NCBI RefSeq assembly: GCF_000337895.1
Contig: NZ_AOMA01000203.1
Location: 1 to 49,102 of the forward strand
Source of the DNA: Halobiforma nitratireducens JCM 10879
Lineage (GTDB): Archaea; Halobacteriota; Halobacteria; Halobacteriales; Natrialbaceae
Length of the DNA stretch: 49,102 bases
Reading direction: 5' to 3'
How positions within the stretch are numbered: the first letter of the stretch is position 1; every line of letters starts with the position of its first letter. Below are positions 24,736 to 45,450 of the stretch, one piece after another. The notes under the pieces are model-generated. The model was not told where the DNA came from, ran no database searches, and saw only the letters and a program-made list of their open reading frames with translations. The position numbers and the translations under genes are program-made.

Positions 24736-26199
24736 ATGATACCAACGATCGATCGTCGACGGTTCGGAGACCTGCTCGGGGCGACGGCAATCGCCGCGTA
24801 CCTGTTGATCGCCCTCGGAACAGCCGTGTCCACGACCGGCAGCGGCTCCTCCTGTACGACCTGGCCCAGCTGTTCGACCGACTGGACGATTGGCCCCATG
24901 ACCGGCGAGGCGCTGCTGTTCTGGAGCCACCGTGCCGCCGCACTCCTCGCGGGCGTCCTCGTCGTCTCAACCGCTCTCGCTGCCTGGCGGCTCGACGTCG
25001 ACTGGCGCGTGAAAGCCGGCGTCGCGGTCGCACTCGTGCTCTTCCCGGTTCAGGTCGCTCTGGGTGCTATGCTCGTCGTCGGGGGGTCGACGCTGGTCAG
25101 CGTCGCACACCTCCTGTTCGCGATGGTCATCTTCGGAGGGCTGCTCGGTGCGCTGATCGTCGCCCTCGAGAACCGCGCGCTCGAGGACGCAGGCGAACGC
25201 GCGGACGAGTTCACGGAACCGATCGACCCGGACCCGTCCCTCGAGCCGGACGACTCCGACGAGCCCGTCGCCACGGAGCCGACCGCCGATCGTGTCCAGG
25301 TCGAGGACCTGGAACCGCTCGAACGACTTCGCCGGACCGCCGGCGCGTACCTGACGTTGACCAAGCCAAAACTCGTGTGGCTGCTCTGTCTGGTCGCGCT
25401 CGCCGGTATCGGCCTGGCGACGGTCACTGGCGAGTCGGTCGCGGTGAGTACCGTCCTCGCGACGTTGCTCGGTGGTACCCTCGCGATCGGCGCGTCGGGT
25501 ACGTTCAACCACGTCCTCGAGCGCGATCGCGATCGGCAGATGGATCGGACGAACGACCGGCCGCTCGTCCACGACCTCGTTCCCGTTCGTAACGCCGTCG
25601 CGTTCGGAAGCTTCCTCGTCGCGGCCTCGATGACCGTGATGTTGACCTGGGTGAACGCGCTTGCGGCCGTCCTGACGCTGGCGGCGATCGCCTACTACGT
25701 CGTCCTCTATACAGCCGTACTGAAGCCGAACACGTCCTGGAACACCGTTCTCGGTGGTGGTGCAGGCGCGCTACCGGCGCTGATCGGCTGGGCGGCCGTC
25801 ACCGGCAGCGTCGGGCTCCCGGCGCTGGTGCTCGCGGCGGTCATCTTCTGGTGGACGCCGGCACACTTCTACAGCCTCGCGATTGCCTACCGCGAGGATT
25901 ACGCGAACGGCGGGTTCCCGATGTTCCCCGTCGTCGAGGGAGTGTTGACCGCACGCCGGCACGTCCTGCTGTTCCTGGGTGCGACGCTGCTGTCGGCGAG
26001 CCTGCTCGGCTGGCTCGCCGGCCTCGGCTGGCTCTACACCCTGACCTCCGTCGCACTCGGTGGCGTCTTCCTCCGTTCGGTCGTCCGCCAGTACCGCGAA
26101 CCGACCGACGACGCCGCCCTCCGGTCGTTCTACGTCTCGAACTACTATCTCGGGGCGATCCTCGTCGCGATCGTCCTCGAGACGGTCGTGGTGGCCTGA
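24736..26199 (+). CDS. ctaB: Heme O synthase with CtaA-like N-terminal half
   Basis: The C-terminal about 290 residues are a UbiA-type farnesyltransferase that converts heme B to heme O: LTLTKPKLVWLL, the Asp-rich NHVLERDRDRQMDRTNDRPL, VLYTAVLKPNTSWN and WTPAHFYSLAIAYREDY. The N-terminal about 150 residues hold four membrane helices. They include ALGTAVSTTGSGSSC, WPSC and HRAAALLAG, and resemble one half of heme A synthase CtaA (COX15). An acidic linker joins them. At 487 residues the protein is far longer than plain CtaB (about 300). It probably supplies heme O/A to terminal oxidases and opens the respiratory island. Confidence 0.9.
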   Translation: MIPTIDRRRFGDLLGATAIAAYLLIALGTAVSTTGSGSSCTTWPSCSTDWTIGPMTGEALLFWSHRAAALLAGVLVVSTALAAWRLDVDWRVKAGVAVALVLFPVQVALGAMLVVGGSTLVSVAHLLFAMVIFGGLLGALIVALENRALEDAGERADEFTEPIDPDPSLEPDDSDEPVATEPTADRVQVEDLEPLERLRRTAGAYLTLTKPKLVWLLCLVALAGIGLATVTGESVAVSTVLATLLGGTLAIGASGTFNHVLERDRDRQMDRTNDRPLVHDLVPVRNAVAFGSFLVAASMTVMLTWVNALAAVLTLAAIAYYVVLYTAVLKPNTSWNTVLGGGAGALPALIGWAAVTGSVGLPALVLAAVIFWWTPAHFYSLAIAYREDYANGGFPMFPVVEGVLTARRHVLLFLGATLLSASLLGWLAGLGWLYTLTSVALGGVFLRSVVRQYREPTDDAALRSFYVSNYYLGAILVAIVLETVVVA

Positions 26200-26927: not shown

Positions 26928-27347
26928 TCACTCCCTCCGCACGACGAGATCGCCGCGAACCGTCGTTTGACAGGCCAGTCGACGCTGTTGTCGGTCGTCT
27001 CCGTCACCGTCACCGTCACCGTCACCGTCACATGGCGCGTTCCCCTCGCCACCCTCGCAGCCGTCATCCGCCGCTCCTAACCGCTTGCGCTCGGCCTCTG
27101 TCGGATCGTTCGTCTCGCCCTCGACGGTGACGGTACACATCCCACAGATGCCGTTCCCACAGAGGGAGACGGGGGTCGAACTCGAGAGGGCGTCGCGTGG
27201 CAGCGCCCGCAGGAGGTTTTGACCGTCATCGGACTCGATCCGTTCGCCATCGTACCGTATCGTCGGCACGTCCCGCTGTGTGTCCGGGCCGTCGTCTCCG
27301 TTCGCGGTCGCGCTCGAATCCGATCGGTTTCGCTCACTCCCCGTCAT
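26928..27347 (-). CDS. Plant-type 2Fe-2S ferredoxin with an expanded acidic insertion
   Basis: The 139-residue protein has the 2Fe-2S ligand set C63-x4-C68-x2-C71 (LCGNGICGMC) and C126 (RLACQTTV). In standard ferredoxins about 29 residues separate the last two ligands; here there are 54. The extra part contains two more Cys and an Asp-Gly run encoded by five CCGTCA repeats. The start overlaps the end of the hemA-like gene by 14 bases, so it is the last gene of the d1 operon. It probably passes electrons to the radical SAM enzyme or another biosynthetic step. Confidence 0.8.
   Translation of the reverse strand: MTGSERNRSDSSATANGDDGPDTQRDVPTIRYDGERIESDDGQNLLRALPRDALSSSTPVSLCGNGICGMCTVTVEGETNDPTEAERKRLGAADDGCEGGEGNAPCDGDGDGDGDGDDRQQRRLACQTTVRGDLVVRRE
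27001..27030. repeat. Hexanucleotide repeat (CCGTCA) x5 inside the ferredoxin gene
   Basis: Five perfect tandem copies encode an Asp-Gly run on the minus strand. The unit keeps the frame, so changes in copy number would lengthen or shorten the acidic loop between the third and fourth cluster cysteines. Confidence 0.9.
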
Positions 27348-28758
27348 CGTCGTTGGTGGGGTCCGTGGGGAGGTCGAACAGTTCTCCCGCGGCCCGGAGC
27401 AACTCGGGATCGTCCTCCCTGGCGGCCTCCCGAAGTCGATCCGTCGGCGGCCCGAACAGCCGTCCCGCGAACGAGGTGGCAAACTCCTCGAGCACTCGCT
27501 CGGGATCGGCGTCGCCGTCCCGAAGGCGGTTGCGCGCCCGCTCGAGTTCGGTCTCCCGGACGGCCGCGGCGTGTTCGTGTAACGCTCGCAGCGTCTCTTC
27601 GGCACGGTTCTCGCGCTCGCGTCGGACGAACCGCCGTACGTGCTCCTCGACGACCGCCTCGGCCTCGGGAACGGCCTCGCGGCGGCTCGTTCGGGCGCTG
27701 GCTCGGCGCTGGACGTCCACGAGCGATCGGTACGCGACGTCGGCTCGGTCGCCGACGGTCGGATCGACGTCCGGGGGGTTGCCCAGATCGACGACGGCGC
27801 TTGGCCCTTCTGTCACGGCGTCCGCCCCGACGACCGGCTCGTCGGCCCCCGTCGCCGCGACGACGCCGTCGGCCGACGTGACGATCTCCCCAACTCGCTC
27901 GAGTCCGACGGCGACCCCGTCGTCCGTGGCGAGATTGCAGGCCCGTTCGACGGTCCGATTCGCGGCGTCGATCCGGACGGCAGGCCAGCACTCCCGAAGT
28001 GCATCGACGGCTGCCTGAATCACCTCGCCGGCACCGACGACGGCGATCCGATCCGGCGAGTCGACCTCGGCGGCGAGGAGGTCCCGTGCCGCGGTGCCGT
28101 AGTCGAGGCTGCCGTCGGCGATCCCCGTCTCGGTTCGACAGGCACGGCCGGCCCGAAGCCCGGCCTCGGCTGCGCGGCCGACGACGCCGTCGACGAGCCC
28201 CGCTTCGTCGGCGTCTTCGAGCGCGCGCCGAAGCTGGCCGATGATCTCGTCCTCGCCGAGAATCGGGCTCTCGAGGCCGGCTGCGAGCCGCGCCAGGTGG
28301 GCGACGGCGTCGGTGCCAGCGTACAGTCGGCCGATACTGGCGTCGGCCGGCATCGACAGCGTTTGCCGGACCGCCTCGAGCGCAGCGGGACAGTCGCCCG
28401 GTGAGCGGCCAGCGACGTAGACCTCGACGCGGTTGCAGGTTGCGAGTACGAAACACTCCGTGACGCGGTCGGTCGCGGCGATCGCTTCCGCCGTCCCGAC
28501 CGGGTCCGTCGGCGCGAGGTCGCCGATCCGCTCGAGCGAGCCGCCGCCGTCCAGTCCCGAGACGGTCAGGCAGGCGATACGCTCGATCGAGCGTGGCGGT
28601 GTCGGTCGTCTCTCGGGGTCGACTCGGTCGTTCGAGTCCGCGGTCGCGATCGGCCTCGATCGTGACTGTGGCGGCTCGCTCGAACTCGGGTTGCTCGAGT
28701 GTGATCGAGAGCGCGACCACAGCGGGCGATGGGTCGGGGGGTGGATCGGATCGGACAT
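27334..28758 (-). CDS. hemA: Glutamyl-tRNA reductase (HemA-like), operon copy
   Basis: HemA reduces glutamyl-tRNA to glutamate-1-semialdehyde, the first committed step of tetrapyrrole synthesis. The catalytic Cys is in FVLATCNRVEVY (C108), the substrate-site signature SPILGEDEIIGQL follows, and the NADPH site is VVGAGEVIQAAV. A C-terminal dimerisation helix bundle is present. The 474-residue protein carries a Ser/Pro/Arg-rich extension of about 60 residues before the catalytic domain. It starts 3 bases after the radical SAM gene. Its N-terminal sequence differs from the usual haloarchaeal HemA, so I infer a second copy dedicated to this operon. Confidence 0.88.
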   Translation of the reverse strand: MSDPIHPPTHRPLWSRSRSHSSNPSSSEPPQSRSRPIATADSNDRVDPERRPTPPRSIERIACLTVSGLDGGGSLERIGDLAPTDPVGTAEAIAATDRVTECFVLATCNRVEVYVAGRSPGDCPAALEAVRQTLSMPADASIGRLYAGTDAVAHLARLAAGLESPILGEDEIIGQLRRALEDADEAGLVDGVVGRAAEAGLRAGRACRTETGIADGSLDYGTAARDLLAAEVDSPDRIAVVGAGEVIQAAVDALRECWPAVRIDAANRTVERACNLATDDGVAVGLERVGEIVTSADGVVAATGADEPVVGADAVTEGPSAVVDLGNPPDVDPTVGDRADVAYRSLVDVQRRASARTSRREAVPEAEAVVEEHVRRFVRRERENRAEETLRALHEHAAAVRETELERARNRLRDGDADPERVLEEFATSFAGRLFGPPTDRLREAAREDDPELLRAAGELFDLPTDPTNDDDGE

Positions 28759-28761
28759 GGG

Positions 28762-30060
28762 TCAGGTGCCGGGTGCGTCGATCGGTACGTCGGTCGGTTC
28801 GTGGGCGGTTCCGCCATCGTCGCCGACGAGGCCGAGCTCCTCGTCGGTCAGGTAACACCGTGGGTCCTCGGCCCAGAGGTCGTCGTTCTCCGCGAGTGCT
28901 CGAGCGCGGGAGTTTCCGCCACAGACCTCCCTGAACGGACACTCGCCACACCGTCCCTCGAGGTGGGGGCTGGGCTCGGCGAGCTTCGACCAGACGTCGC
29001 TGTCGGCCAGTATCTCGTCGAGGCGACGCTCACGGACGTTGCCCATCGTGATCGTCGGCAGGAACATGCTCGGGTGGACGTCGCCACGGTAGTCGACGTT
29101 GACCACTTTCGGACCGCTGTCGCCTTTCTTGACGACCCGGCCGGGGCCGTCGTCGAACAGCAACTCCCTGGCGCGATCGGCTCGCTCGGGCAGTTCCCGC
29201 TGTATCTTCCGATAGAGGTAGACTGCATCGGCGTAGTTCCCCGCCGACAGCAGCTGCATCTCGGGGTTCGTCTCGGCCAACTCGAGCGTCCGCTCGAAGA
29301 GATAATCGACCATCTCCCGGCTGCGCTCGAAGGGGAGGTCGGTGTCGGTGATCGTCCCTCCCCGGCCGGTGTAGATCAGGTGGAACACGTTGAGCCGATC
29401 CACCTCGAGGTCGACGGCGAGATCGACGAGGTCGGGCAGGTCGTCGATCGTCTCCCGGGTCATCGTCGAACGGATGCCGGTGCTCATGCCGGCGTCCTGG
29501 GCGTTTTCGATCCCGTCGATGGCTTCCTCGAACGAGCCGTCCTTGCCGCGGAACTCGTCGTGGGTGTCGCCGACGCCGTCGAGCGAGACGCCGACGTAGG
29601 CCATCCCCGCGTCGGCGACCGCTCGGGCACGGTCGGGCGTCAGATAGGTGCCGTTGCTCGAGGCGATCGGTCGCATCCCCTGTCGGTCGGCGTAGGCTGT
29701 GAGTTCGGCGATGTCCTCGCGGACGAACGGCTCGCCGCCGCTGAACACGAGCACGGGGACGTTCATCGAGGCGAGTTCGTCGATGAACGCTTTCGCCTCC
29801 GCAGTCGACAGCTCCTCGTCCGACCGGCTGTCGACGGCCCCGAAGTAGCAGTGTTGACACCGCAGGTTGCAGGCGGGTGTGGTGTTCCAGACGACGAGCG
29901 GAACCAGCGGCGAGTCGGTTCCGTCCCGGCCGGCTCCGTCGTCCGGACCCTCGGAGCCGCACCGCTTGCGACCCTCGCTGCCGTCGCCGAACGACTGCTC
30001 GTATTTCATCCCCTCGGGCCGGTTGTCGATGCCGTTGACGAATCTGGTGAGGTCGATCAT
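28762..30060 (-). CDS. Radical SAM enzyme, NirJ/AhbC/AhbD-like (heme d1 biosynthesis candidate)
   Basis: The 432-residue protein has the radical SAM cluster motif C64-x3-C68-x2-C71 (CNLRCQHCYFG), the GGE motif (FSGGEPFVRED) and a C-terminal auxiliary-cluster set C371, C374, C380 and C402. That C-x2-C-x5-C pattern is typical of NirJ and Ahb proteins, which modify siroheme-derived porphyrins. NirJ makes the propionate changes of heme d1 (known). The neighbours are two NirF-like propellers and a d1-domain protein, so NirJ is the favoured role; AhbC/AhbD-type heme synthesis is the alternative. The ATG overlaps the preceding stop (ATGA). Confidence 0.82.
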   Translation of the reverse strand: MIDLTRFVNGIDNRPEGMKYEQSFGDGSEGRKRCGSEGPDDGAGRDGTDSPLVPLVVWNTTPACNLRCQHCYFGAVDSRSDEELSTAEAKAFIDELASMNVPVLVFSGGEPFVREDIAELTAYADRQGMRPIASSNGTYLTPDRARAVADAGMAYVGVSLDGVGDTHDEFRGKDGSFEEAIDGIENAQDAGMSTGIRSTMTRETIDDLPDLVDLAVDLEVDRLNVFHLIYTGRGGTITDTDLPFERSREMVDYLFERTLELAETNPEMQLLSAGNYADAVYLYRKIQRELPERADRARELLFDDGPGRVVKKGDSGPKVVNVDYRGDVHPSMFLPTITMGNVRERRLDEILADSDVWSKLAEPSPHLEGRCGECPFREVCGGNSRARALAENDDLWAEDPRCYLTDEELGLVGDDGGTAHEPTDVPIDAPGT

Positions 30061-31235
30061 GGCTGGAAGATACCGCTCGGCATCTCGCCGAGTCCGTCGA
30101 TTCGGTCGACGACCGTCACTTCGTCCGGCCGGTCCGCACGGAGCGGCTCGAGATCGAGGACGGTCACCGAGGGGCGATCCATGTTGCCGACGTAGCACTC
30201 GCTTCCGTCGTCTCCGACGACCAGATGCAGTGGTTCGCCGTCCACCGTCACGTGACCGGCAACCGACAGCGTCTCGGCGTCGACGATCGTCACGCGTGGC
30301 TCGTCGTAGGAGTCGACCAGCACGTACCGGTCGTCGGCTGCGGTCGCGGCGAAGCCGGTCGTCGTCTCGACGTCGACGAACGTCGTGGGATCGTCGTCGC
30401 CGGCTGTGACCGCGCCGATGTCGATCGCCGCGACCCGTTCGTCGTCACGGGCGGGGACGTAGGCTCGTTTCCCGCCGGGACCGTCGGCGAACGTAATCCC
30501 GTGTGGGTTCTCGCCGGTGGGAGCCGCTCCTCGAACTGCCCCCTCTGCGGCGTCGACGAACGTAGTAAACGATTCGCCGGCGTTGTTGACCGCGATCAGG
30601 TCCGTTCCGGGAACCGGATAGATGTCGTGTGGCTCGCTCCCGACGTGATACCGCTCGAGCTCGGACAGCTCGGCCGTCGGCGACAACGCGACCAGCTCGC
30701 CGGCCTTCTTGTCGGCGACGTACACCAGCCCGTTGGGACCGATACACATCCCGGCACAGCGGCCAATCGGCTGTGTACCGATCCGCTCGAGGCGGATCGA
30801 CGAGTCGCCCGCATCGCCTTCGTCCCCGTCAGCACCGACGACTCGGAGGGCGACGACGCCCGGCTCCGGATCGTCCGGTAGCTCCGCGGCCGTACCGACG
30901 AACAGCCGCTTTCCATCGCGGGTAAGCGCGCTGCCGACGGTCGCGACCCCCAGATCGTCGATCCGCTGGACCGTCTCCAGCCGTTCCAGATCGACCACCT
31001 CGAGGTGGGAACTCGAGATATACAGCAGGATCGCGTGTCTCCCGTCGGGATGGAAGACGGCGGTGTGGGGGTAGCTGCCGTCGCCGAGCCGGGCGATCTC
31101 CTCACGATCGGCCGGATCGACGGCGCTGAAGTAGCTGCTGCCCGCGTTTTTGACGATCGCGAAGCTGTCACTGTCCGTCTCCGGAACCGTTCCGGAGGTC
31201 TCCTCCGTTCGTGTCGTCTGTGTGGGACGAGTCAT
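30057..31235 (-). CDS. Cytoplasmic NirF-like d1-type beta-propeller, copy 1
   Basis: The 392-residue protein consists of blade repeats of the YVTN/d1 type (HTAVFHPDGRHAILLYISS, LEVVDLERLETV, then YVLVDSYDEPRVTIVDAETL). It has no Tat or Sec signal, so it should stay in the cytoplasm. In NirS-type bacteria NirF is a propeller related to the d1 domain and needed for heme d1 assembly (known). The gene is coupled by ATGA at both ends, between its paralog and the radical SAM gene. I infer a NirF-like assembly or dehydrogenase protein. An exported reductase is unlikely without a signal. Confidence 0.7.
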   Translation of the reverse strand: MTRPTQTTRTEETSGTVPETDSDSFAIVKNAGSSYFSAVDPADREEIARLGDGSYPHTAVFHPDGRHAILLYISSSHLEVVDLERLETVQRIDDLGVATVGSALTRDGKRLFVGTAAELPDDPEPGVVALRVVGADGDEGDAGDSSIRLERIGTQPIGRCAGMCIGPNGLVYVADKKAGELVALSPTAELSELERYHVGSEPHDIYPVPGTDLIAVNNAGESFTTFVDAAEGAVRGAAPTGENPHGITFADGPGGKRAYVPARDDERVAAIDIGAVTAGDDDPTTFVDVETTTGFAATAADDRYVLVDSYDEPRVTIVDAETLSVAGHVTVDGEPLHLVVGDDGSECYVGNMDRPSVTVLDLEPLRADRPDEVTVVDRIDGLGEMPSGIFQP

Positions 31236-32413
31236 GGCGTATCACCGGTCGCGTGCTCCGTCAGGAAACAACTCGAGGGGGCACTGTCCTCGGGAAGGTC
31301 GACCGTCCGTTCGACGGTCGGCGGTCCGTCTGTCGTTCGAAAGAGTGGTTCCGTGTCGAGTACTGAAAACGAATCCCCGCTCACGTTCGGGACGTAACAC
31401 CGCCGTCCGTCTGCGCCGAACCGCGGATGGCGGGGTTCCGGCCCCGTCTCGACGCGTGCGACGACTTCGAGGGACGCGACCTCGAGGAACGTCACGCGGT
31501 CGTCCTCGTAGGCGTCGACGACGGCGTACTCGCCGTCGGGAGTTACGTCGGGGAAGGCCGTCGGCGTGGCGAGCGAGCGCTGCTCGACGAGTTCGGGACC
31601 AGCGTCGCTGCCGGCGTCGTCGCCGAGGTCGATCACGGTCACGCCGTCCCCCTCGGTATCCCCGACGAGCCAGCGGCCGTGTTCGACCGACGCGACGCCG
31701 CCCCGCGGGTTCGGGGCGTCGACCGTCCCGACGAGCGTCCGGCGGTCGACATCGACGAACGAGACGCTGCCGTCGTCGACGTTGTTCACACCCAGTAGCC
31801 CCAGTTCCGGTGCGTACGCCAGGTCCTGGGGATCGCCGGGCACCTCGAGTCGATCGCGCATCTCGAACGGCGGTTCGGCGTCCAGCCGGACGACCGCGTC
31901 GTCGTCTTTCAGTGCGATCCAGAGATCGTTCGATCGATCGACGACCGCGCCGGCACACTTCCCGATCCGACGGGTCGCGAGGAGTTCGAGCGAAGGGTCG
32001 GACGAGTTGCGTTCCCCGGGTCGCCGTTCGTCCTCGGCCCGAAGCACCGTCAGGCCCGGCTCGTCCGCGCCGGGTAACTCGCCGTAGCCGGTGACGAACA
32101 GGTAGCGGCCGTCGCGAGCGTACTCGATCCCGATCGGTGCCGTCCCGACCGTCTCGGTCCGGTCGAGGACCGACAGCGACCGACGATCGACGGTCTGGAT
32201 CGTGCTCGAGCCGGCGAACGCGATGGAGACCCACCTGCCGCCGGGGTGAAACGCCAGGCCGTGTGGGTGGCGTCCGTCGCCGACGGTCGCGACGTGGGTG
32301 CCGGCGTCGACGTCGATCACGGCGACGCCGGTGTCGCGCATCAGCTTGACGAACGCCAGGTCGGTTTCGGCCGGAGTCGGGGCTTCGTCGGCGGTCGTGG
32401 TGGGATGGGACAT
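31232..32413 (-). CDS. Cytoplasmic NirF-like d1-type beta-propeller, copy 2
   Basis: This 393-residue paralog of the next gene has the same blade pattern: VAVIDVDAGTHVATVGDGRH, HPHGLAFHPGGRWVSIAF, then VVDAYEDDRVTFLEVASLEV. Again there is no export signal. Tandem duplication followed by divergence is clear from equal length and matched blade order. Two cytoplasmic propellers could work as a heterodimer or act at successive steps of heme d1 synthesis, like NirF and NirN in bacteria, although NirN is periplasmic there. It follows the CuA-d1 gene by 129 bases and overlaps its paralog by ATGA. Confidence 0.7.
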   Translation of the reverse strand: MSHPTTTADEAPTPAETDLAFVKLMRDTGVAVIDVDAGTHVATVGDGRHPHGLAFHPGGRWVSIAFAGSSTIQTVDRRSLSVLDRTETVGTAPIGIEYARDGRYLFVTGYGELPGADEPGLTVLRAEDERRPGERNSSDPSLELLATRRIGKCAGAVVDRSNDLWIALKDDDAVVRLDAEPPFEMRDRLEVPGDPQDLAYAPELGLLGVNNVDDGSVSFVDVDRRTLVGTVDAPNPRGGVASVEHGRWLVGDTEGDGVTVIDLGDDAGSDAGPELVEQRSLATPTAFPDVTPDGEYAVVDAYEDDRVTFLEVASLEVVARVETGPEPRHPRFGADGRRCYVPNVSGDSFSVLDTEPLFRTTDGPPTVERTVDLPEDSAPSSCFLTEHATGDTP

Positions 32414-32542: not shown

Positions 32543-34405
32543 TCAGCCGTCCCAGCCGAACCGGAACTTCTCGGCGCGGTTCATCGGGAACTTGCCAGTC
32601 GGGGTGATGTAGTCGTCGTGGACCTGTTCGATGTGTTCGCCAGTGTGACTGTCGTAGACGTGGATCTCTCCTTCGGGCCAGTGACTGACGAAGAGACGCT
32701 GGCCGTCGCGGGAGAAGATCGGGTGGATGGCGTGATCGCTGCCGGTTTCGATCTCCATCTCGACTGTGTGGTCCCAGCGGTCGATCGCGTAGATCAGCTG
32801 ATCGAGTTCGGGGTCGTCTCGCAGGGCCACGTCACACCAGATGTAGTCACAGTCGGGGTGTTCCCGCAGGAACAGGCCGCCGCCGGGGACCTCGACCTCC
32901 GCCTCGACTTCCCAGGTCTCGGTGTCCCAGGCCGTCGTTACGGGTTCGCCGAGGTGGGTCGTCCAGGCCAGTCCCGTGTCGGGGTCCATCGCGCCCGGGC
33001 CGGGGTGTGGGACCTCGCCGGTCGGAATGTTGCGGACGAGTTCCTGTTCTTCGACGTCGACGACCGACATGACGCCGTCGGTCTGGGAGGCGACCATGAA
33101 GTACCGGCCGTCGGGCGTGAAGAACCCGTCGTGGAGGGTTCGTGCACAGTCGATCTCGGCGACGACGGGGAAGGCCTCGTCACCCTCGTCTTGCGTGTAA
33201 TCGATCAGCCAGACCTGGCCGAGTTCCTTGAGTGCGGCAACGAACACGCCCTGGTTAGGGGCGTCGTACAGCGCACAGACGCGACTCTCGACGAACTGGC
33301 CGTCGAGGTCGATCCCCTGCGTGGAGATCTGTTTGAGCGGCTCCATCGTCTCGGCGTCGACGATGAACAGCTGTCCGGGGTTGTAGAGGCCGCCGATGAG
33401 GTAGTTGCTGTTCCGGGACAGCGCCAGGTCGCGGGCGTCGGTCCCGACACGACAGCTGGCGACGCGGTTGAGCCCGAACAGATCGAGCTTGAATAGCTGT
33501 CCGTCGCGGGCCATCGTGTACGCGTAGGCCCCTTCGCGTTCGTTCTCGGGAATGTCACGGTGGAACTCGACGACGTGGATGGCGTGACCGACGTCCTCGA
33601 TCCGTCCCAGGTTCTCGTGGTTCGCCTGGTCGTAGTAGGAGACGGAGGCGTTGTCCCGCTCGATCACCATGTGGATGTCCATGATGTCGTCGACCAGCTC
33701 CGGCTCCTGTGGGAGTTCCTCTTCCTCGTGATGAATCTCGTGAGTCGTACGGACGTCCTCGATGTCGCGGTAGTCGAACTCCGCTGCCTCGTCGCCGACG
33801 AACAGTTCGCCCTCCATCTGGGCGTGGCCGTCACCACAGTACAGCGTACACTCGTAGAGGTGCCGGCCCGGCTCGTCCGCCACGAACTCGATGGACTCGG
33901 TCACCGTGTCGGGGTCCGTGTCTTCCGGAAGCACGACGTGTTCGTCGTACGGATCGAGCAGGTGCCAGTCGTGGAGTTCGAAGTCCGGATTCTCCTCGAA
34001 CGTCGACTCGATGAAGTCGATGTGGACGATGTCGCCTTCGGGAACGTGGATCTCCTGTGGCTCGAACCCGTACTGGTACGCGGTCATCTCGAACTCGTGG
34101 ACTTCCGCGTCGTCGTCGACGGGTTCGTCTTCGTCATCGTCCCCGTCCTCGGCTTCGTCGTCCTCGTCTGCCGGGTCTTCGTCCCCCATACAGCCGGCGA
34201 TAGCTGCGGTGCCGGCCGCCGCGGTTCCCGCGAGGAATCGACGACGTTCCGGCACGTCGAGGTCGACCCACTCTGGGAAATCCATCCGGTCTTTGATTCC
34301 CAGCTCCTCGGCGTCGTCGGCTTTCATCGCGTAGGCTTTCTTGATCCGCTCGATACGTTCTTCCGTCGTTTCGACATCGTCTGATGGGCGTTCGCTTTCG
34401 GACAT
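32543..34405 (-). CDS. CuA cupredoxin fused to a cytochrome-d1 domain: putative nitrite reductase
   Basis: This 620-residue protein is exported by Tat (RRRFLAG near residue 54) and lipid-anchored at C72 (IAGC). After an acidic linker, residues about 103-205 form a cupredoxin with a complete CuA set: H145 (FELHDW), C186, C190, H194 and M197 in CTLYCGDGHAQM. Residues about 240-610 form a d1 propeller like that of NirS. It keeps the proximal ligand (GHAIH, H277), both distal histidines (TLHDG, H425; VPHPG, H467) and the TPTGKF end motif. NirS reduces nitrite to NO and normally gets electrons through a cytochrome c domain; here CuA stands in that place. The 50-residue stretch before the twin arginines is unusual, and M41 is an alternative start. 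Confidence 0.85.
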   Translation of the reverse strand: MSESERPSDDVETTEERIERIKKAYAMKADDAEELGIKDRMDFPEWVDLDVPERRRFLAGTAAAGTAAIAGCMGDEDPADEDDEAEDGDDDEDEPVDDDAEVHEFEMTAYQYGFEPQEIHVPEGDIVHIDFIESTFEENPDFELHDWHLLDPYDEHVVLPEDTDPDTVTESIEFVADEPGRHLYECTLYCGDGHAQMEGELFVGDEAAEFDYRDIEDVRTTHEIHHEEEELPQEPELVDDIMDIHMVIERDNASVSYYDQANHENLGRIEDVGHAIHVVEFHRDIPENEREGAYAYTMARDGQLFKLDLFGLNRVASCRVGTDARDLALSRNSNYLIGGLYNPGQLFIVDAETMEPLKQISTQGIDLDGQFVESRVCALYDAPNQGVFVAALKELGQVWLIDYTQDEGDEAFPVVAEIDCARTLHDGFFTPDGRYFMVASQTDGVMSVVDVEEQELVRNIPTGEVPHPGPGAMDPDTGLAWTTHLGEPVTTAWDTETWEVEAEVEVPGGGLFLREHPDCDYIWCDVALRDDPELDQLIYAIDRWDHTVEMEIETGSDHAIHPIFSRDGQRLFVSHWPEGEIHVYDSHTGEHIEQVHDDYITPTGKFPMNRAEKFRFGWDG

Positions 34406-34873: not shown

Positions 34874-35632
34874 ATGGACTCCGAACGACTCCCGCCCTCG
34901 TCCCTGCCGTCGCTGGAGAGACGGTCGTTCCTCCGAGCGACCGGTACGGCAGGGATGCTGGCTGTGGCGACGACAGCCGGTTGTACCGAACTCCGTGCCT
35001 CCGAGGGCCCTGACGACGTCATCCTCCCGCCGCCGGAGGAGTACGACGAGGATATCGCCGCGGAGATTTCCCACCCGACCTACGGCGACGAGGTCCCCGA
35101 AGTGACCGTTCCGGCCCCGCTCGAGGACGAGACGATCACGACGACCGACTTCGTCGGGGAGCGTCACTCGCTGTACACGTTCCTGTTTACGCGGTGTCCG
35201 AGCGCCTGTCCGGGGCTGCTGGAGAGTCTTCGACACGTGCAACACGATTCGATCGAGGAGACCTACGCCGACGACGTGGCGTTGCTCCCGGTGACGTTCG
35301 ACCCGGAGCACGATACGCCGGACGTCCTCGCGTCGTACGAGGATGATTACGGAGTCGCCCAGGATGTCGACAACTGGTACACGCTGCGTCCGGAGACCCC
35401 GGCTGCCGCCCAGGAAGCAGTCACGGATGGGTTCGGCGTCGCGTTCGCGGAGAACGACGACGAGGAGGACGACGGAAACGGCGAGGACATGGAGATGGAC
35501 ATGGCGTTCATCCACACCAACCTCGTCCTGTTCGTCAACAAGAACGGCTACGTCGAGCGGGCCTACACCGGCGATCCGCCGACGCCCGCCGCCGTCGTCG
35601 ACGACGTGACCACCGTCATCGAGGAGTGGTAG
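34874..35632 (+). CDS. SCO1/SenC-type copper chaperone
   Basis: The 252-residue protein begins with a twin-arginine lipoprotein signal (ERRSFLRATGTAG, lipobox Cys at residue 37). It has the SCO copper site C108-x3-C112 (TRCPSACP) and the distal H214 (FIHTN) in a thioredoxin fold. SCO proteins deliver copper to the CuA site of heme-copper oxidases (known). Here two CuA proteins are neighbours: the d1 fusion and the oxidase subunit II. A Met/Asp-rich loop (DMEMDM) just before H214 could add copper affinity. The stop is one base before the next start. Confidence 0.9.
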   Translation: MDSERLPPSSLPSLERRSFLRATGTAGMLAVATTAGCTELRASEGPDDVILPPPEEYDEDIAAEISHPTYGDEVPEVTVPAPLEDETITTTDFVGERHSLYTFLFTRCPSACPGLLESLRHVQHDSIEETYADDVALLPVTFDPEHDTPDVLASYEDDYGVAQDVDNWYTLRPETPAAAQEAVTDGFGVAFAENDDEEDDGNGEDMEMDMAFIHTNLVLFVNKNGYVERAYTGDPPTPAAVVDDVTTVIEEW

Positions 35633-35633
35633 T

Positions 35634-36191
35634 ATGAAACGACGCGACCTCCTCGCCGGCGCGGCCGCAGTCGGCGTCGCGGGTGCCGGTGCCGTCTTCG
35701 CGACCGGCGGGTTCGGCAGCAGCGTCGAGGGCGTCGAGCCGTTCGAACTCGAGACGATCGACGCGCCCGGCAGCGAGGCCGGAACGCTCGCGGTCCCCGA
35801 ACCCGGACGCGTCACCTTCCTCGAGCTGTTCGCGACGTGGTGTGACGCCTGCGCACGGACCGTCGCGACGAAAGGCGAGGTCTACGACGAGCTGGGGGAG
35901 CGAGACGACCTCCAGTTCGTCTCGGTGTCGAACGAACCGCTCGGCCACACCGTCACGAGAGACGATGTCGCCGACTGGTGGGACGAACACGACGGTCGCT
36001 GGACGGTCGCGATCGACGACGACCTCGCACTAACGGAAACACTCGATGCTTCGGGCGTTCCCTACAGTTTCGTCCTCGACGCGGAGAACCGCGTCACCTG
36101 GTCCCGACAGGGCGACGTAGCCGCCGACGAACTACGGGACGCGATCACGAGCGCACTCGAGTCCGAAACGGACGAGAACGGAGAGAACTGA
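35634..36191 (+). CDS. TlpA/ResA-like exported thioredoxin
   Basis: The 185-residue protein has a Tat-like signal (MKRRDLLAGAAAVGVAGAGA) and a thioredoxin fold with the redox pair C70-x2-C73 (TWCDAC) and the cis-Pro loop VPYSF. TlpA-like proteins reduce disulfides outside the membrane, including the CuA cysteines of oxidase subunit II and of SCO (known from bacteria). It sits between SCO and CcdA, which completes a CuA maturation set. Confidence 0.9.
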   Translation: MKRRDLLAGAAAVGVAGAGAVFATGGFGSSVEGVEPFELETIDAPGSEAGTLAVPEPGRVTFLELFATWCDACARTVATKGEVYDELGERDDLQFVSVSNEPLGHTVTRDDVADWWDEHDGRWTVAIDDDLALTETLDASGVPYSFVLDAENRVTWSRQGDVAADELRDAITSALESETDENGEN

Positions 36192-36195
36192 CGAC

Positions 36196-36852
36196 ATGAC
36201 TGGGGGAGAACTGGTCGGCACGGCGGCGTTCGCGCTCGGAGCCGGAGTGGCGACGTTCTTCTCGCCGTGTTCGTACGCCTTGCTCCCCGGATACGTCGGC
36301 TACTACGTCTCCGCGACCGGGCGCGAGAGCCCGCCGCTTGGTGGCGCAGTCGCCCGCGGCGTCGCTGCAGCTGCAGGCGCTATCCTCGTCCTCGGGATTC
36401 TCTCTGCCGTTGCACTCGTCGCCGGCGACACGCTCGAGCGTGTGCTCCCGACGTTCGAGTACGCCGTCGGCGTCGCACTGATCGGCCTCGGCGGCTGGAT
36501 CGTGGCCGGGGGACCGGGCGCGATCCACGGGATGTTGCCGAAACGACGCTCGAGTGTGCTGGGGTTTGGCCTGTTCGGCGGGATGTACGCGCTGGCGGCG
36601 ACGGCTTGTGTGTTGCCGCTGTTTCTCGGGATCGTCCTCCGAACGTTCACGATGTCGACGCTCGAAGGGGCGTTCGTCCTGGGGGCGTACGTCGCCGGCT
36701 TCGCCGCCTTACTGCTGGCGGTTACCGTGGCGACGGCGGTCGGTCACGCGATCGGCGCTGGTCGGCTGACCGGCTACGTCGATCGACTCGTCAGAGCCGG
36801 TGGTGTCGTGCTCGTCCTGGCCGGGTTCGGCCAGCTGTACGTCGCGGCGTAG
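36196..36852 (+). CDS. ccdA: CcdA/DsbD-type membrane electron carrier
   Basis: The 218-residue membrane protein has six helices and the CcdA cysteine motifs FFSPCSYALLPGY (helix 1) and LAATACVLPLF (helix 4). CcdA moves electrons from cytoplasmic thioredoxin to exported thioredoxins such as the TlpA-like protein encoded 4 bases upstream. It follows that gene without a promoter, so the three genes SCO, TlpA and CcdA form one unit. Confidence 0.92.
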   Translation: MTGGELVGTAAFALGAGVATFFSPCSYALLPGYVGYYVSATGRESPPLGGAVARGVAAAAGAILVLGILSAVALVAGDTLERVLPTFEYAVGVALIGLGGWIVAGGPGAIHGMLPKRRSSVLGFGLFGGMYALAATACVLPLFLGIVLRTFTMSTLEGAFVLGAYVAGFAALLLAVTVATAVGHAIGAGRLTGYVDRLVRAGGVVLVLAGFGQLYVAA

Positions 36853-37143: not shown

Positions 37144-37701
37144 ATGACGTCACCGATCAAACCGCCGAAAGGTAACTGGTGGGATCAACCCGTCAACAGA
37201 CGCGAATCGATCTGGCTCGGACTCGGCGTCGGCTGGGCGCTGGTCCTGTTCGGGTGGATGAGTGCGTTCACACGGATCGGCGATCAGAACCCGATCGGCG
37301 AGACTTACCGGGTTACCGAGGACGAGCTCCGCGAGAAAGTACAGGCGTTCGAAGAAGCAGCCGAGCAGCGCGACGACGGCGCGTACGTTCCGGCGGGCGA
37401 CGACGTCTACGTCGTCGGCTATCAGTTCGACTGGGACGGGCTCCCGGTCGTCCTCGAGACCGGTCAGGAGTACGATTTCCACCTCGGCTCCTACGATGTC
37501 CAGCACGGCTTTTCGATCCGGCCGGAACACGCCTACAGCCAGCAGATCAACCTGCACGTGACCCCCGGTAAGGAGTGGATCATCCCGATGGAGTTCGACG
37601 AACCCGGGACCTACCACGTCCTCTGTAACGAGTTCTGCGGAGAGGGGCACCGAGGAATGCACAACACCATCATCGTGGAGGAGGGTGACGATGGCGAGTA
37701 A
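37144..37701 (+). CDS. coxB: CuA-containing subunit II of a heme-copper oxidoreductase
   Basis: The 185-residue protein has one N-terminal membrane helix (about residues 23-42) and an exported cupredoxin domain with all CuA ligands: H121 (YDVQHGF), C161, C165, H169 and M172 in CNEFCGEGHRGM. It receives electrons from a soluble donor, probably a halocyanin, and passes them to subunit I. The short length and single helix are typical of B-family (ba3-like) enzymes. It overlaps the subunit I gene by 11 bases. Confidence 0.93.
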   Translation: MTSPIKPPKGNWWDQPVNRRESIWLGLGVGWALVLFGWMSAFTRIGDQNPIGETYRVTEDELREKVQAFEEAAEQRDDGAYVPAGDDVYVVGYQFDWDGLPVVLETGQEYDFHLGSYDVQHGFSIRPEHAYSQQINLHVTPGKEWIIPMEFDEPGTYHVLCNEFCGEGHRGMHNTIIVEEGDDGE

Positions 37702-39442
37702 TCTCGACGTCTTCGGCTGGTTCGACAACGACTACGACGAAGACGGGTTCCGAACGTGCTCGGTCACCGGCTTCGACGTCCACCAGTCGGTCGAGAACCA
37801 CGTCAAGCTCTACGGCGTAACCGCCGTCGTCTTCATGCTGATCGGCGGGATATTCGCGCTCACCGTCGCGACGACGCGGTGGGAATACATCGGCCTCCTG
37901 GAGGCCGGCGACTACTACCGCCACCTCAGCATGCACGCCTGGAGTCTGCTGATCTTCTGGATCATCTTCATGGAGATCGCGATCCTCTACGTCGGTGGCC
38001 CGATGGTACTCGGGCGAAAGCTGCCCATCGAGTGGGCCGCGAAACTCGGGTACGTCGTGATGGTCGCCGGTGCGATCATCATCTACTATACGATCTGGAC
38101 GGTCACGGGGAACCCCGTCGAGGACAACGCGCCGCTTTTGACGGCGTATATCCCACTCGAGATCAACCCTCTCTTCTACGTCGGCGCGATCGTGTTCGTC
38201 CTCGGCGTCACGGTGGCAGCGTTGCCGTTCTTCCTCGCGCTGTGGTACGAGAAACGCGAGAATCCCGGACAGACGCTACCGCTGGTGACGTTCGGTGCGT
38301 TCGTCGCGGGGATCATCGCAGTCCAGTCGATCCTCGGCGGCCTCGTCGCGTTCAGCGGCGGTCTGGCCTACCAGCTCGGGCTCGCACCGTGGTTCGACGC
38401 CGGCATGTACCGCCAGTGGTTCTGGATCATCGGTCACGGGACCCAGCAGATCAACCTCGTGGCGATGATCACCGTCTGGTACCTCTTTACCCACGTCATC
38501 GGGGGTGCCGAGGTTGTCAGCGAGAAGGTCTCCCGAACCGCGTTCATCCTCTACCTGTTTTTCATCGTCATGGGGGCGGCCCATCACCTGATGGTCGACC
38601 CCGGTCTCTCCGCGGGCTGGCGCATCTGGAACACGTCCTACGCGTTCTACGGTGCGACCTTCGCCAGCCTCGTCCACGCCTTTACCATCCCCGCCGGCCT
38701 CGAGGCCGGCCGCCGTAAGCGCGGCAAGGGAGGTGGCCTCTTTGGCTGGCTCACGTCCGCGCCGTGGAAGAACCCGATGTTCTCGACGTCGATCTTCGCG
38801 ATCATCCTGTTCGGGTTCCTCGGCGGCATCACGGGCGTGATGATGGGGCAGCTCCAGCTCAACATGAGCTGGCACAACACGTTCGCGACCGTCGGTCACT
38901 TCCACAGCACGGTCGTGCTCGGAACGACGGTCACGTTCATGGGCGTCGTCTACTTCGTCATCAAGACGATGTTCCAGCGGGAGTTCGTCTCCCCGAAGCT
39001 GGCCTCCTTCCAGCCGTACCTCTACTGTAGCGCGATGGCGATCACCGCGCTGATGATGATGTACGTCGGCATCCTCTATGGCATCCCGCGCCGGACCTCC
39101 GAGGTCGTCCGGAACATCCCGGGCACCGACTTCAGCATCATCGGTGCCGCGCCGCTGTTCCACGTCTTCGGCATCTTCGCGCTGATCGCGATCGCCGGCG
39201 GGGCCCTGTTCGTCCTGCTTGCGGTCGGGTCGCTGCTGTTCGGAAAGCGAATCGAGCCCGGCGAGGACGACAGCCTCGTTCCCGACGGCGGCCTCGAGAT
39301 GGCGACCGATCCGGAGGACCCGGTCCACGCCTACGAGATGCGTGGCACGTTCATCCTCTGTCTGATCTTCCTCGGCGTCTTCGTCGTTGCCTACGTACTG
39401 AACTGGTTCCTGCTCACGCAGCTGTGGTCGATCGGGGTGTAA
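37691..39442 (+). CDS. B-family heme-copper subunit I lacking the active-site Tyr (candidate NO reductase)
   Basis: The start is the ATG at 37691 inside the end of subunit II. The 583-residue protein has about 13 membrane helices and the metal ligands H82 (MHAWSLL), H249, H298-H299 (GAAHHLMVDPG), H403 and H405 (VGHFH). In oxygen reductases helix VI reads HPxVY, with the Tyr cross-linked to a CuB histidine. Here it reads H249-GTQ-Q253, so Gln replaces Tyr. A His (H329) stands where Thermus ba3 has a K-channel Thr (recalled alignment). Loss of the Tyr is a hallmark of NO reductases (known). With the d1 protein next door, NO reduction is the favoured role; an atypical oxygen reductase remains possible. 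Confidence 0.9.
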   Translation: MASNLDVFGWFDNDYDEDGFRTCSVTGFDVHQSVENHVKLYGVTAVVFMLIGGIFALTVATTRWEYIGLLEAGDYYRHLSMHAWSLLIFWIIFMEIAILYVGGPMVLGRKLPIEWAAKLGYVVMVAGAIIIYYTIWTVTGNPVEDNAPLLTAYIPLEINPLFYVGAIVFVLGVTVAALPFFLALWYEKRENPGQTLPLVTFGAFVAGIIAVQSILGGLVAFSGGLAYQLGLAPWFDAGMYRQWFWIIGHGTQQINLVAMITVWYLFTHVIGGAEVVSEKVSRTAFILYLFFIVMGAAHHLMVDPGLSAGWRIWNTSYAFYGATFASLVHAFTIPAGLEAGRRKRGKGGGLFGWLTSAPWKNPMFSTSIFAIILFGFLGGITGVMMGQLQLNMSWHNTFATVGHFHSTVVLGTTVTFMGVVYFVIKTMFQREFVSPKLASFQPYLYCSAMAITALMMMYVGILYGIPRRTSEVVRNIPGTDFSIIGAAPLFHVFGIFALIAIAGGALFVLLAVGSLLFGKRIEPGEDDSLVPDGGLEMATDPEDPVHAYEMRGTFILCLIFLGVFVVAYVLNWFLLTQLWSIGV

Positions 39443-39637
39443 GCGCGAGCGACGCCCCGTTCGTTTTTCGGTGGCGGTGACGCCGGTTCTCCCGGTTCAT
39501 CGTCGCTTTCCGAACTCACTCAGAGGTCCCCGCTCGTCTACGGGGTGTCAGTGCGCGAACCGATTCGGCCACGATTTCACCTTCGACCGACACGAACGAC
39601 CGGATACGATCGATCCGACTCACCCACGATACGACCC

Positions 39638-40327
39638 ATGTCAGACCCACAAACCGCTACGACCGACTCGCGACCCGGTTTCGTCCGGCGAACCCTCCGA
39701 CAGGCCTGGCGAGACCTGTTGAGTGTCTACTACGCCAACACGGTAATCTGGCGCTACCTCAAAAGCGGAGCCCTCCTGTGGTTCGGGCTCATGATCTGGG
39801 CCTTCTCGAACCTCGTCCTGTCGTACCGACCCGACTGGACGTTCATGTACTACGTGATGGCCTACGGGTTCGCCCTCGTGTTGTGGGGGCCGCTGACCCA
39901 CCTCGTCGTCGTCCCGCTTGTCATCCGCCTTCGGAAGTCGGGGGCGACGGGCGTCGCTCGTTCGGTCGCCAGACACGGCTCCAAGATCAATCTGAGCGTG
40001 TTCTTCGCGATCGTGATCCTGCTCGGCGCGATGCCGTTCGGGCCGATGGTGCTTGACTTCCAGCCGACCGCGACCGGCGACGACGACAGTTCCGTCCCGG
40101 CTCCCGAACTCGAGTGTACCGAGACCGACGAGCTCGTCCAGTGTTCGTTCTCCCACGACGAAGGGTACGATCGCGTCGAGGTAACCGGTCCCGACGGCGA
40201 CAGTACCACGATCGAGGAGCCACCATACGAGTTCGAGATCGATCCCGACGAATACGACCGGTTCGTCGTCGAGGTGCTCGACGAGGACGGCGAGATGATC
40301 GATCGACAGGTCCAGCGTCTCGGCTGA
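39638..40327 (+). CDS. Membrane protein with exported beta domain, oxidoreductase-associated
   Basis: The start at 39638 (MSDPQTATTDSRPGF) is preferred over an upstream frame without features. The 229-residue protein has three membrane helices (about residues 43-63, 69-95, 118-137) and a C-terminal acidic beta-strand domain (VEVTGPDGDSTTIEEPPYEF, Ig/fibronectin-like) that should face outside. It follows the subunit I gene by 195 bases on the same strand. I do not recognise the family. An accessory or assembly subunit of the neighbouring enzyme is a reasonable inference. Confidence 0.6.
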   Translation: MSDPQTATTDSRPGFVRRTLRQAWRDLLSVYYANTVIWRYLKSGALLWFGLMIWAFSNLVLSYRPDWTFMYYVMAYGFALVLWGPLTHLVVVPLVIRLRKSGATGVARSVARHGSKINLSVFFAIVILLGAMPFGPMVLDFQPTATGDDDSSVPAPELECTETDELVQCSFSHDEGYDRVEVTGPDGDSTTIEEPPYEFEIDPDEYDRFVVEVLDEDGEMIDRQVQRLG

Positions 40328-45280: not shown

Positions 45281-45450
45281 CCCGTGCACGAAGATTGGCG
45301 TAGCTCTTCGATAGACGTGGTGTCGAATATGTTCGCCCGAATTCGATCCTCTCGGCGGCCGAAAGCGCAGATTTGGAGATACGGGACGCGATATAAACGG
45401 CTGCAATATAAAGAGCGACCTAAATCAGTTGAGGGTACGTACCGACGAGT

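Follow-up and report, generated by a model that had tools for sequence, protein, structure and literature searches.

A CuA cupredoxin domain fused to a heme d1 propeller in haloarchaea: a predicted nitrite reductase

Cytochrome cd1 nitrite reductase (NirS) is the textbook case of electron transfer from heme c to heme d1 controlling the release of nitric oxide (NO). Could a copper centre take the place of heme c in such an enzyme? The question is raised by a gene of Halobiforma nitratireducens JCM 10879 on a stretch of 49,102 nucleotides (contig NZ_AOMA01000203.1; hereafter the window, whose coordinates are used throughout; G and L labels denote compared genomes and loci). Here we report that a CuA cupredoxin domain sits N-terminal to a heme d1 propeller in one polypeptide, as confirmed at the sequence level. 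We propose, with a probability of roughly two in three, that this protein (CuA-d1) is a nitrite reductase exported by the twin-arginine translocation (Tat) system and anchored by a lipid, in which binuclear CuA replaces the heme c of cytochrome cd1.

Architecture and conservation of the fusion protein

A previous reading of the sequence alone had described the fusion at positions 32543-34405. These coordinates are right, and the open reading frame lies on the minus strand, which that reading omitted; the plus strand contains stops. Its residue numbers (H145, C186, C190, H194, M197, H277, H425, H467) and its TPTGKF end were likewise all correct. The gene and its parts are:

32543-34405, minus: CuA-heme d1 fusion protein, predicted nitrite reductase, 620 amino acids
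34190-34246, minus: Tat signal core and lipobox (R54, R55 ... A70-G71-C72); invariant residues, TIGR01409 match under its cut-off
33794-34114, minus: CuA cupredoxin domain, residues 98-204; ligands H145, C186, C190, H194 and M197
32579-33688, minus: heme d1 propeller, residues 240-609; H277 proximal, H425 and H467 distal, TPTGKF end

From the N-terminus, the protein consists of a long n-region, a twin-arginine motif, a lipobox, an acidic linker, the cupredoxin domain, a short linker in which H222 is invariant, and the heme d1 propeller; it is presumably exported and anchored in the membrane. The propeller (residues 240-609) matched Pfam Cytochrom_D1 (PF02239) with E=8e-72. In the region of about residues 90-205, both the NCBIfam matches (L-NosZ, NosZ, CoxB) and the single-sequence PDB matches (NosZ, ba3-type CoxB) were to CuA proteins only, and Pfam returned Cupredoxin_1 alone, sub-threshold (E=0.07). 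A profile of the cupredoxin region aligned its Cys-x3-Cys-x3-His-x2-Met loop with the loop of NosZ and CoxB (best E=1.4e-5), whereas NirK, auracyanin and plastocyanin matched at E above 0.04 only.

Structure prediction and a genome search for the domain pair had both been proposed as checks by the sequence-only reading. The CuA domain modelled alone reached a predicted local distance difference test (pLDDT) score of 79, and its top three Foldseek matches were CuA domains (E about 2e-5, template modelling (TM) score 0.64-0.66), followed by the cupredoxin AcoP and further CuA proteins. The model of the whole protein had a pLDDT of 66.7, with 10-residue blocks of the propeller mostly at 70-95, and was superposed by Foldseek on NirS (6tsi) with a root-mean-square deviation of 3.0 over 434 columns.

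Of 125 genomes searched in the window's family, 13 contain the full-length fusion, as do three named species outside the family. A scan of named genomes with two short patterns, able to pick up no more than close relatives, gave nine loci out of 37 pattern matches, in haloarchaea only (Halobiforma haloterrestris, five Natrinema species, Halorubrum salipaludis, Halorubrum amylolyticum and Natronomonas sp. LN261). In a class-wide sample of 391 genomes, a strong d1 domain was present in 15 genomes from 6 of 86 genera, and the best d1 match of each lay in an open frame of at least 631 codons that was read as CuA-d1 (15/15). In the plasmid search for CuA-d1 outside haloarchaea, none of the 38 matching records covered 80% of the query.

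The 18 aligned rows represent 16 distinct proteins (the G161 row is identical to that of Natronomonas, the G272 row to that of Halorubrum salipaludis). The five CuA ligands, the three histidines H277, H425 and H467, and the Tat and lipobox residues R54, R55, A70, G71 and C72 are invariant in all 18, and none of the 18 contains the cytochrome c motif CxxCH; the sequence-only reading had likewise seen no cytochrome c domain. A frameshift or misassembly as the origin of the fusion is ruled out by the identical architecture of the 16 distinct proteins.

Kind and descent of the heme d1 propeller

The histidines H277, H425 and H467 align with the proximal and both distal histidines of seven out of seven bacterial NirS, and the PHPG and TGK motifs of NirS are also kept. 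The position of H425 is occupied by His in CuA-d1 (12/12) and bacterial NirS (7/7), by Asp in NirN-type proteins (5/5) and by Tyr in NirF (4/4; plasmid-borne reference proteins). Because of this residue, the catalytic propeller is assigned to the NirS kind, in agreement with the sequence-only reading. Identity of the d1 domain to CuA-d1 was 41% for NirS of Ruegeria sp. B32, 39% for that of Aliiroseovarius and 30-33% for five other NirS, compared with 28-30% for NirN-type proteins and 24-27% for NirF.

A tree of 33 rows placed the d1 proteins of haloarchaea in one group (84/96), apart from NirS (98/96), NirN and NirF. A single clade of haloarchaeal d1 proteins and NirS was not rejected by the approximately unbiased (AU) test (p=0.145), whereas an origin beside the NirS of Ruegeria and Aliiroseovarius alone was rejected despite the identity of 41% (p=0.018). 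The separate position of the haloarchaeal group agrees with the treatment by Pold et al. 2024 (PMC10999283), in which a Halobacteriota protein without a c domain serves as an additional outgroup.

A second haloarchaeal d1 protein was encountered in eight of the 13 carriers and in none of the 112 other family genomes (p=1e-9). This d1-only paralog has about 420 amino acids and no apparent signal peptide, CuA or cytochrome c (L018-L025, L038-L045; e.g. L038:8478-9737); the proximal and both distal histidines are present in all five aligned of the eight, and from its sequence it looks like a cytoplasmic heme d1 protein. Three of the eight d1-only loci adjoin a sulfite-oxidase-type molybdopterin protein (one scanned). 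In the best tree the paralog was nested inside CuA-d1; CuA-d1 as a single clade gave p=0.085.

Operon, neighbouring genes and co-occurrence

The fusion gene opens a four-gene operon, which is followed by hemA:

31232-32413, minus: prop1, YVTN/d1-type propeller without apparent signal peptide, weakly NirF/NirN-like, candidate for heme d1 biosynthesis (PF02239, 6e-7)
30057-31235, minus: prop2, second such propeller, candidate heme d1 biosynthesis protein (PF02239, 6.5e-8)
28762-30060, minus: radical S-adenosylmethionine (SAM)/SPASM protein of the NirJ/AhbC group, CxxxCxxC intact
27334-28758, minus: HemA, glutamyl-tRNA reductase (tetrapyrrole supply)

CuA-d1, two propellers and the radical SAM/SPASM protein follow one another in all 15 loci examined (13 of the family plus G161 and G272), and HemA adjoins the operon in 14 of them; in G082 the second propeller was called as two pieces. 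In the window, the spacing from CuA-d1 onward is 129 bp, two overlaps of 4 bp each and a gap of 3 bp. Profiles of prop1 and prop2 matched NirF (6tv2) at 4e-11 and 1.8e-7, respectively, in both cases ranked behind a YVTN surface-layer protein and hydrazine synthase beta.

The radical SAM protein scored under the cut-offs of the NirJ, NirJ1, NirJ2, AhbC and TIGR04347 models. In a tree that carried a long-branch warning and contained no bona fide AhbC reference, it grouped on the NirJ/AhbC side and not on the TIGR04053 side, as a clade of its own outside bacterial NirJ. Judged by score band (350-363 bits to the AhbC model), place and, for two non-carriers, tree, the gene was present in 8/8 carriers and 0/7 non-carriers tested; an ordinary housekeeping heme enzyme is ruled out by this restriction to carriers. 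AhbA/B siroheme decarboxylase domains were found in 8/8 carriers and 4/7 others tested. As a separate observation, the near-complete haloarchaeal genomes G080, G083 and G030, two of which belong to the window's genus, gave no match to the AhbA/B domain PF17805, which raises the question of their route of heme synthesis. Taken together, the operon context supports CuA-d1 as a real heme d1 enzyme.

The surroundings of the operon in the window comprise genes for copper maturation, an eNOR-type cluster and two border genes:

34874-35632, plus: SCO1/SenC, copper delivery factor, divergent from the CuA-d1 gene (PF02630, 7.5e-15)
35634-36191, plus: TlpA/ResA-type thioredoxin (Redoxin 1.3e-9; ResA 4e-8, under its cut-off)
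36196-36852, plus: protein resembling the membrane protein CcdA (no Pfam or other family match; order conserved)
37144-37701, plus: eNOR-type subunit II with its own CuA motif (CoxB 1.2e-11, under its cut-off)
37685-39442, plus: eNOR-type heme-copper subunit I (COX1 6e-53; HGTQQ, Gln at the Tyr position)
39545-40327, plus: third gene of the eNOR cluster, labelled by position only (no family match; order conserved)
24736-26199, plus: CtaA-CtaB heme a/o synthase fusion (CtaAB), left border of the cluster
42737-45289, minus: copper P-type ATPase (CopA), right border of the cluster (order conserved)

The HGTQQ motif of subunit I has Gln in place of the Tyr of O2 reductases, and a W..GHG motif scan of neighbouring loci returned nine subunit I rows from eight distinct genes (G052 twice), all with Gln. 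A Gln-type subunit I together with a CuA subunit II is the eNOR signature as tabulated in PMC8756737. Among the relatives compared, an eNOR of the type at 37144-39442 often stands beside NirK.

The space between CtaAB and eNOR-CopA is taken up by the CuA-d1 operon in three genomes, those of the window, G081 and G082. The order CtaAB, NirK, maturation genes, eNOR, CopA was found in G083, G119, G017 and G052 (the last without a called SCO1), and G060 has the NirK-...-eNOR-CopA order with no CtaAB at the left; in four of the five genomes, the gene after NirK encodes a small lipoprotein. In G011, CtaAB-eNOR-CopA occurs with neither NirK nor the CuA-d1 operon between. The presence of the CuA-d1 operon in the NirK slot is the best contextual sign for a role in nitrite reduction to NO, and it is a local pattern.

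Elsewhere the company differs. In five loci of Natrinema-type genomes (L030-L033, L035), a large Tat-type molybdoenzyme is encoded downstream of the operon; that of L031 (1053 amino acids) had its best NCBIfam match to the type II dimethyl sulfoxide (DMSO) reductase family, under its cut-off, and the others were assigned by similar start sequences, those of L030 and L035 being called in two pieces. Three further loci have an apparent WtpA/WtpB transporter beside CuA-d1 (L034 scanned), and the locus of G119 has neither eNOR, molybdoenzyme nor a WtpA/WtpB-like transporter alongside.

Across the family genomes (13 carriers, 112 non-carriers; kinship among genomes means that p-values overstate independence), eNOR subunit I was found in 12/13 carriers and 27/112 others (Fisher p=2e-6), and NirK in 12/13 carriers and 56/112 others (p=0.003). 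The statement of the sequence-only reading that haloarchaea use NirK thus holds for the window genome and nearly all carriers; NirK as an alternative to CuA-d1 does not, and a genome-wide replacement of NirK by CuA-d1 is ruled out by the same count. The cytochrome c families PF00034 and PF13442, to which the search was confined, were found in none of the 13 carriers, in line with the supposition that the host is poor in cytochrome c. Positive controls for the two families matched in 8/14 and 7/14 control genomes, respectively; the window genome is 85% complete and the other 12 carriers 99% or more. The lack of a detected cytochrome c would explain why CuA was swapped for it. For halocyanin-like copper proteins, the electron donors suggested by the sequence-only reading, the halocyanin model matched at E<=1e-10 in only 6/13 carriers and above its cut-off in four, which does not bear out halocyanin as the general donor.

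Proposed function, alternatives and known systems

If CuA-d1 is a nitrite reductase, a reduced donor on the outer face of the membrane would give one electron at a time to CuA; since no cytochrome c was found, this donor is probably a small cupredoxin. The electron would pass from CuA to heme d1 held by H277, and H425 and H467 would bind and protonate nitrite, with NO being released and reduced by eNOR to N2O. This scheme is modelled on the reaction mechanism of NirS and on the roles of SCO1 and TlpA in CuA assembly. SCO1 and the TlpA-like protein would assemble CuA, and the radical SAM protein and the two propellers of the operon would convert didecarboxysiroheme (AhbA/B) into heme d1. Loading with heme d1 and CuA, the electron route, the substrate and the rate are all predictions of this scheme.

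Several results weigh against it. Nitrite reduction is already covered by NirK in nearly all carriers, and in G054, a carrier of CuA-d1, the thresholds applied gave neither NirK nor eNOR. Of the five relatives with NirK in the slot, all but G083 carry CuA-d1 as well (G119, G017, G060, G052); in G052 it lies farther along the NirK island, in the other three elsewhere. G081 and G082 have two NirK genes elsewhere, with SCO1-TlpA-CcdA genes of their own. CuA-d1 stands beside eNOR in only 4 of the 13 family loci, and eight adjoin a molybdoenzyme (five) or an apparent Mo/W transporter (three). The operon propellers score higher to other propeller proteins than to NirF, and the haloarchaeal d1 clade falls outside bacterial NirS in the best tree. 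The whole-protein model is weak at the CuA loop and at residues 465-468, and its top Foldseek match, borne by the propeller, is NirN (6rtd), with NirS second.

The strongest competing explanation, itself unlikely, is an enzyme with heme d1 and CuA whose main task is the reduction of O2, or the handling of NO during micro-oxic or nitrosative stress, while NirK performs the nitrite step. The co-occurrence with NirK fits this explanation, as do the known side activity of cytochrome cd1 towards O2 and the usual role of CuA as the point where electrons enter O2 reductases; the PDB matches include dioxygen complexes of cd1. However, CuA-d1 has both distal histidines of nitrite-reducing NirS, three genomes have its operon in the NirK slot next to eNOR, and the gene is associated with eNOR across genomes, although eNOR itself could serve NO defence.

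Less probable still is a counterpart of NirN that completes heme d1 synthesis by oxidizing dihydro-heme d1, the electrons going to CuA where NirN uses heme c. Like CuA-d1, NirN carries an electron-transfer domain ahead of its d1 propeller, its structure 6rtd came first in Foldseek and, by a small margin, in the single-sequence PDB search, and CuA-d1 shares an operon with d1 biosynthesis-type genes. Set against this are the Asp of NirN-type proteins at the H425 position (5/5, versus 0/12 in CuA-d1) and the higher identity of CuA-d1 to a NirS (41%) than to any NirN-type protein. Moreover, no second strong d1 protein was found in 5/13 carriers, among them the single-contig genomes G017, G061 and G119, so that heme d1 would there serve no enzyme.

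Least probable is that the propeller binds another tetrapyrrole, a related heme made by the operon, and acts on another substrate such as a sulfur or selenium oxyanion produced by the neighbouring molybdoenzyme, as the separate clade and sub-threshold scores of the radical SAM protein and the nearby type II DMSO-reductase-family enzyme of Natrinema-type genomes might suggest, since the heme d1 histidines and PHPG/TGK motifs of NirS are all present and the window cluster is of denitrification type.

With nitrite reduction as the preferred function, CuA-d1 can be set beside known enzymes. It shares with NirS (1qks/1nir; Ruegeria-type) the d1 propeller, the proximal and distal histidines, the TPTGKF end, an export signal and the company of heme d1 biosynthesis-type genes and NO reductase. 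It differs from NirS in having CuA instead of the cytochrome c domain, in its lipobox and d1 clade, and in its occurrence in genomes where cytochrome c was not found. The d1-binding propeller fold is common to NirN (6rtd) and NirF (6tv2), the former having cytochrome c as its N-terminal domain, whereas NirF is a propeller alone. CoxB, NosZ and clade III L-NosZ (NF052460) share the cupredoxin fold and the His ... Cys-x3-Cys-x3-His-x2-Met set. NosZ, too, pairs CuA with a propeller; there, a copper cluster is bound by the propeller and the CuA domain lies at the C-terminus (as did the match), in contrast to the N-terminal CuA and heme d1-type propeller of CuA-d1.

Proteins of this kind are very probably already mentioned in the literature. 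Pold et al. 2024 refer to a NirS-like 'cytochrome d protein' of Halobacteriota that lacks the c domain and was excluded from nirS counts. In PMC11052009, 21 Halobacteriota genomes are given as having nirK together with nirS (K15864) according to KEGG; their genera include Halobiforma, Natrinema, Halorubrum and Natronomonas, as for CuA-d1. The haloarchaeal proteins of both papers very probably are the CuA-d1 clade, and the KEGG nirS could include the d1-only paralog as well. The suggestion of an undescribed enzyme type therefore stands in part only: the proteins had very probably been noticed, and the term CuA is absent from the main texts of both papers. A description or analysis of the fusion was not found in the open-licence full-text literature, supplements excluded; the architecture may be known to a few people already. 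In Chloroflexi C1-C2-NirS, PMC8756737 places an N-terminal cupredoxin ahead of NirS in one polypeptide; these proteins retain their cytochrome c domains, so that the copper domain is added there and substituted in CuA-d1.

If it reduces nitrite, CuA-d1 represents an unstudied design of a key enzyme of the nitrogen cycle in salt-loving archaea. We consider it probable, with rather less assurance than the enzyme's function itself, that a heme d1 enzyme fed by CuA, with the CuA-containing eNOR as its partner, is a third biochemical design of nitrite reductase that forms NO, used by archaea whose respiration of nitrogen oxides involves no cytochrome c. Heme d1 chemistry would then need no heme c, and the d1 lineage of haloarchaea could date back to the split between NirS and NirN. 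A natural enzyme with CuA at the place of heme c would allow the contribution of heme c to be asked directly, and the lack of a detected cytochrome c in carriers offers a simple, testable reason for the domain swap. Surveys of nirS that exclude the clade (PMC10999283), or that found only NirK among haloarchaea, as in PMC8400030, may overlook part of the denitrification potential of hypersaline habitats.

Two minor observations were made in the compared loci. Close to the gene for a large subunit I of cbb3 type (possibly qNOR-like), a Halobaculum plasmid (L118:937-7146) encodes a TIGR04347 protein, a candidate ribosomally synthesized and post-translationally modified peptide (RiPP) of the Htur_1727 type, a radical SAM protein of the TIGR04053 family and a halocyanin; the TIGR04347 family is named pseudo-SAM, yet this member and five relatives retain CxxxCxxC. 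The second gene downstream of NirS in Ruegeria sp. B32, Azospirillum and Aliiroseovarius encodes a plastocyanin/azurin-type or other copper-binding protein:

L108:12173-12580: copper-binding protein gene near NirS
L113:21487-21813: copper-binding protein gene near NirS
L109:7193-7609: copper-binding protein gene near NirS

These three proteins are possible copper donors to their NirS.

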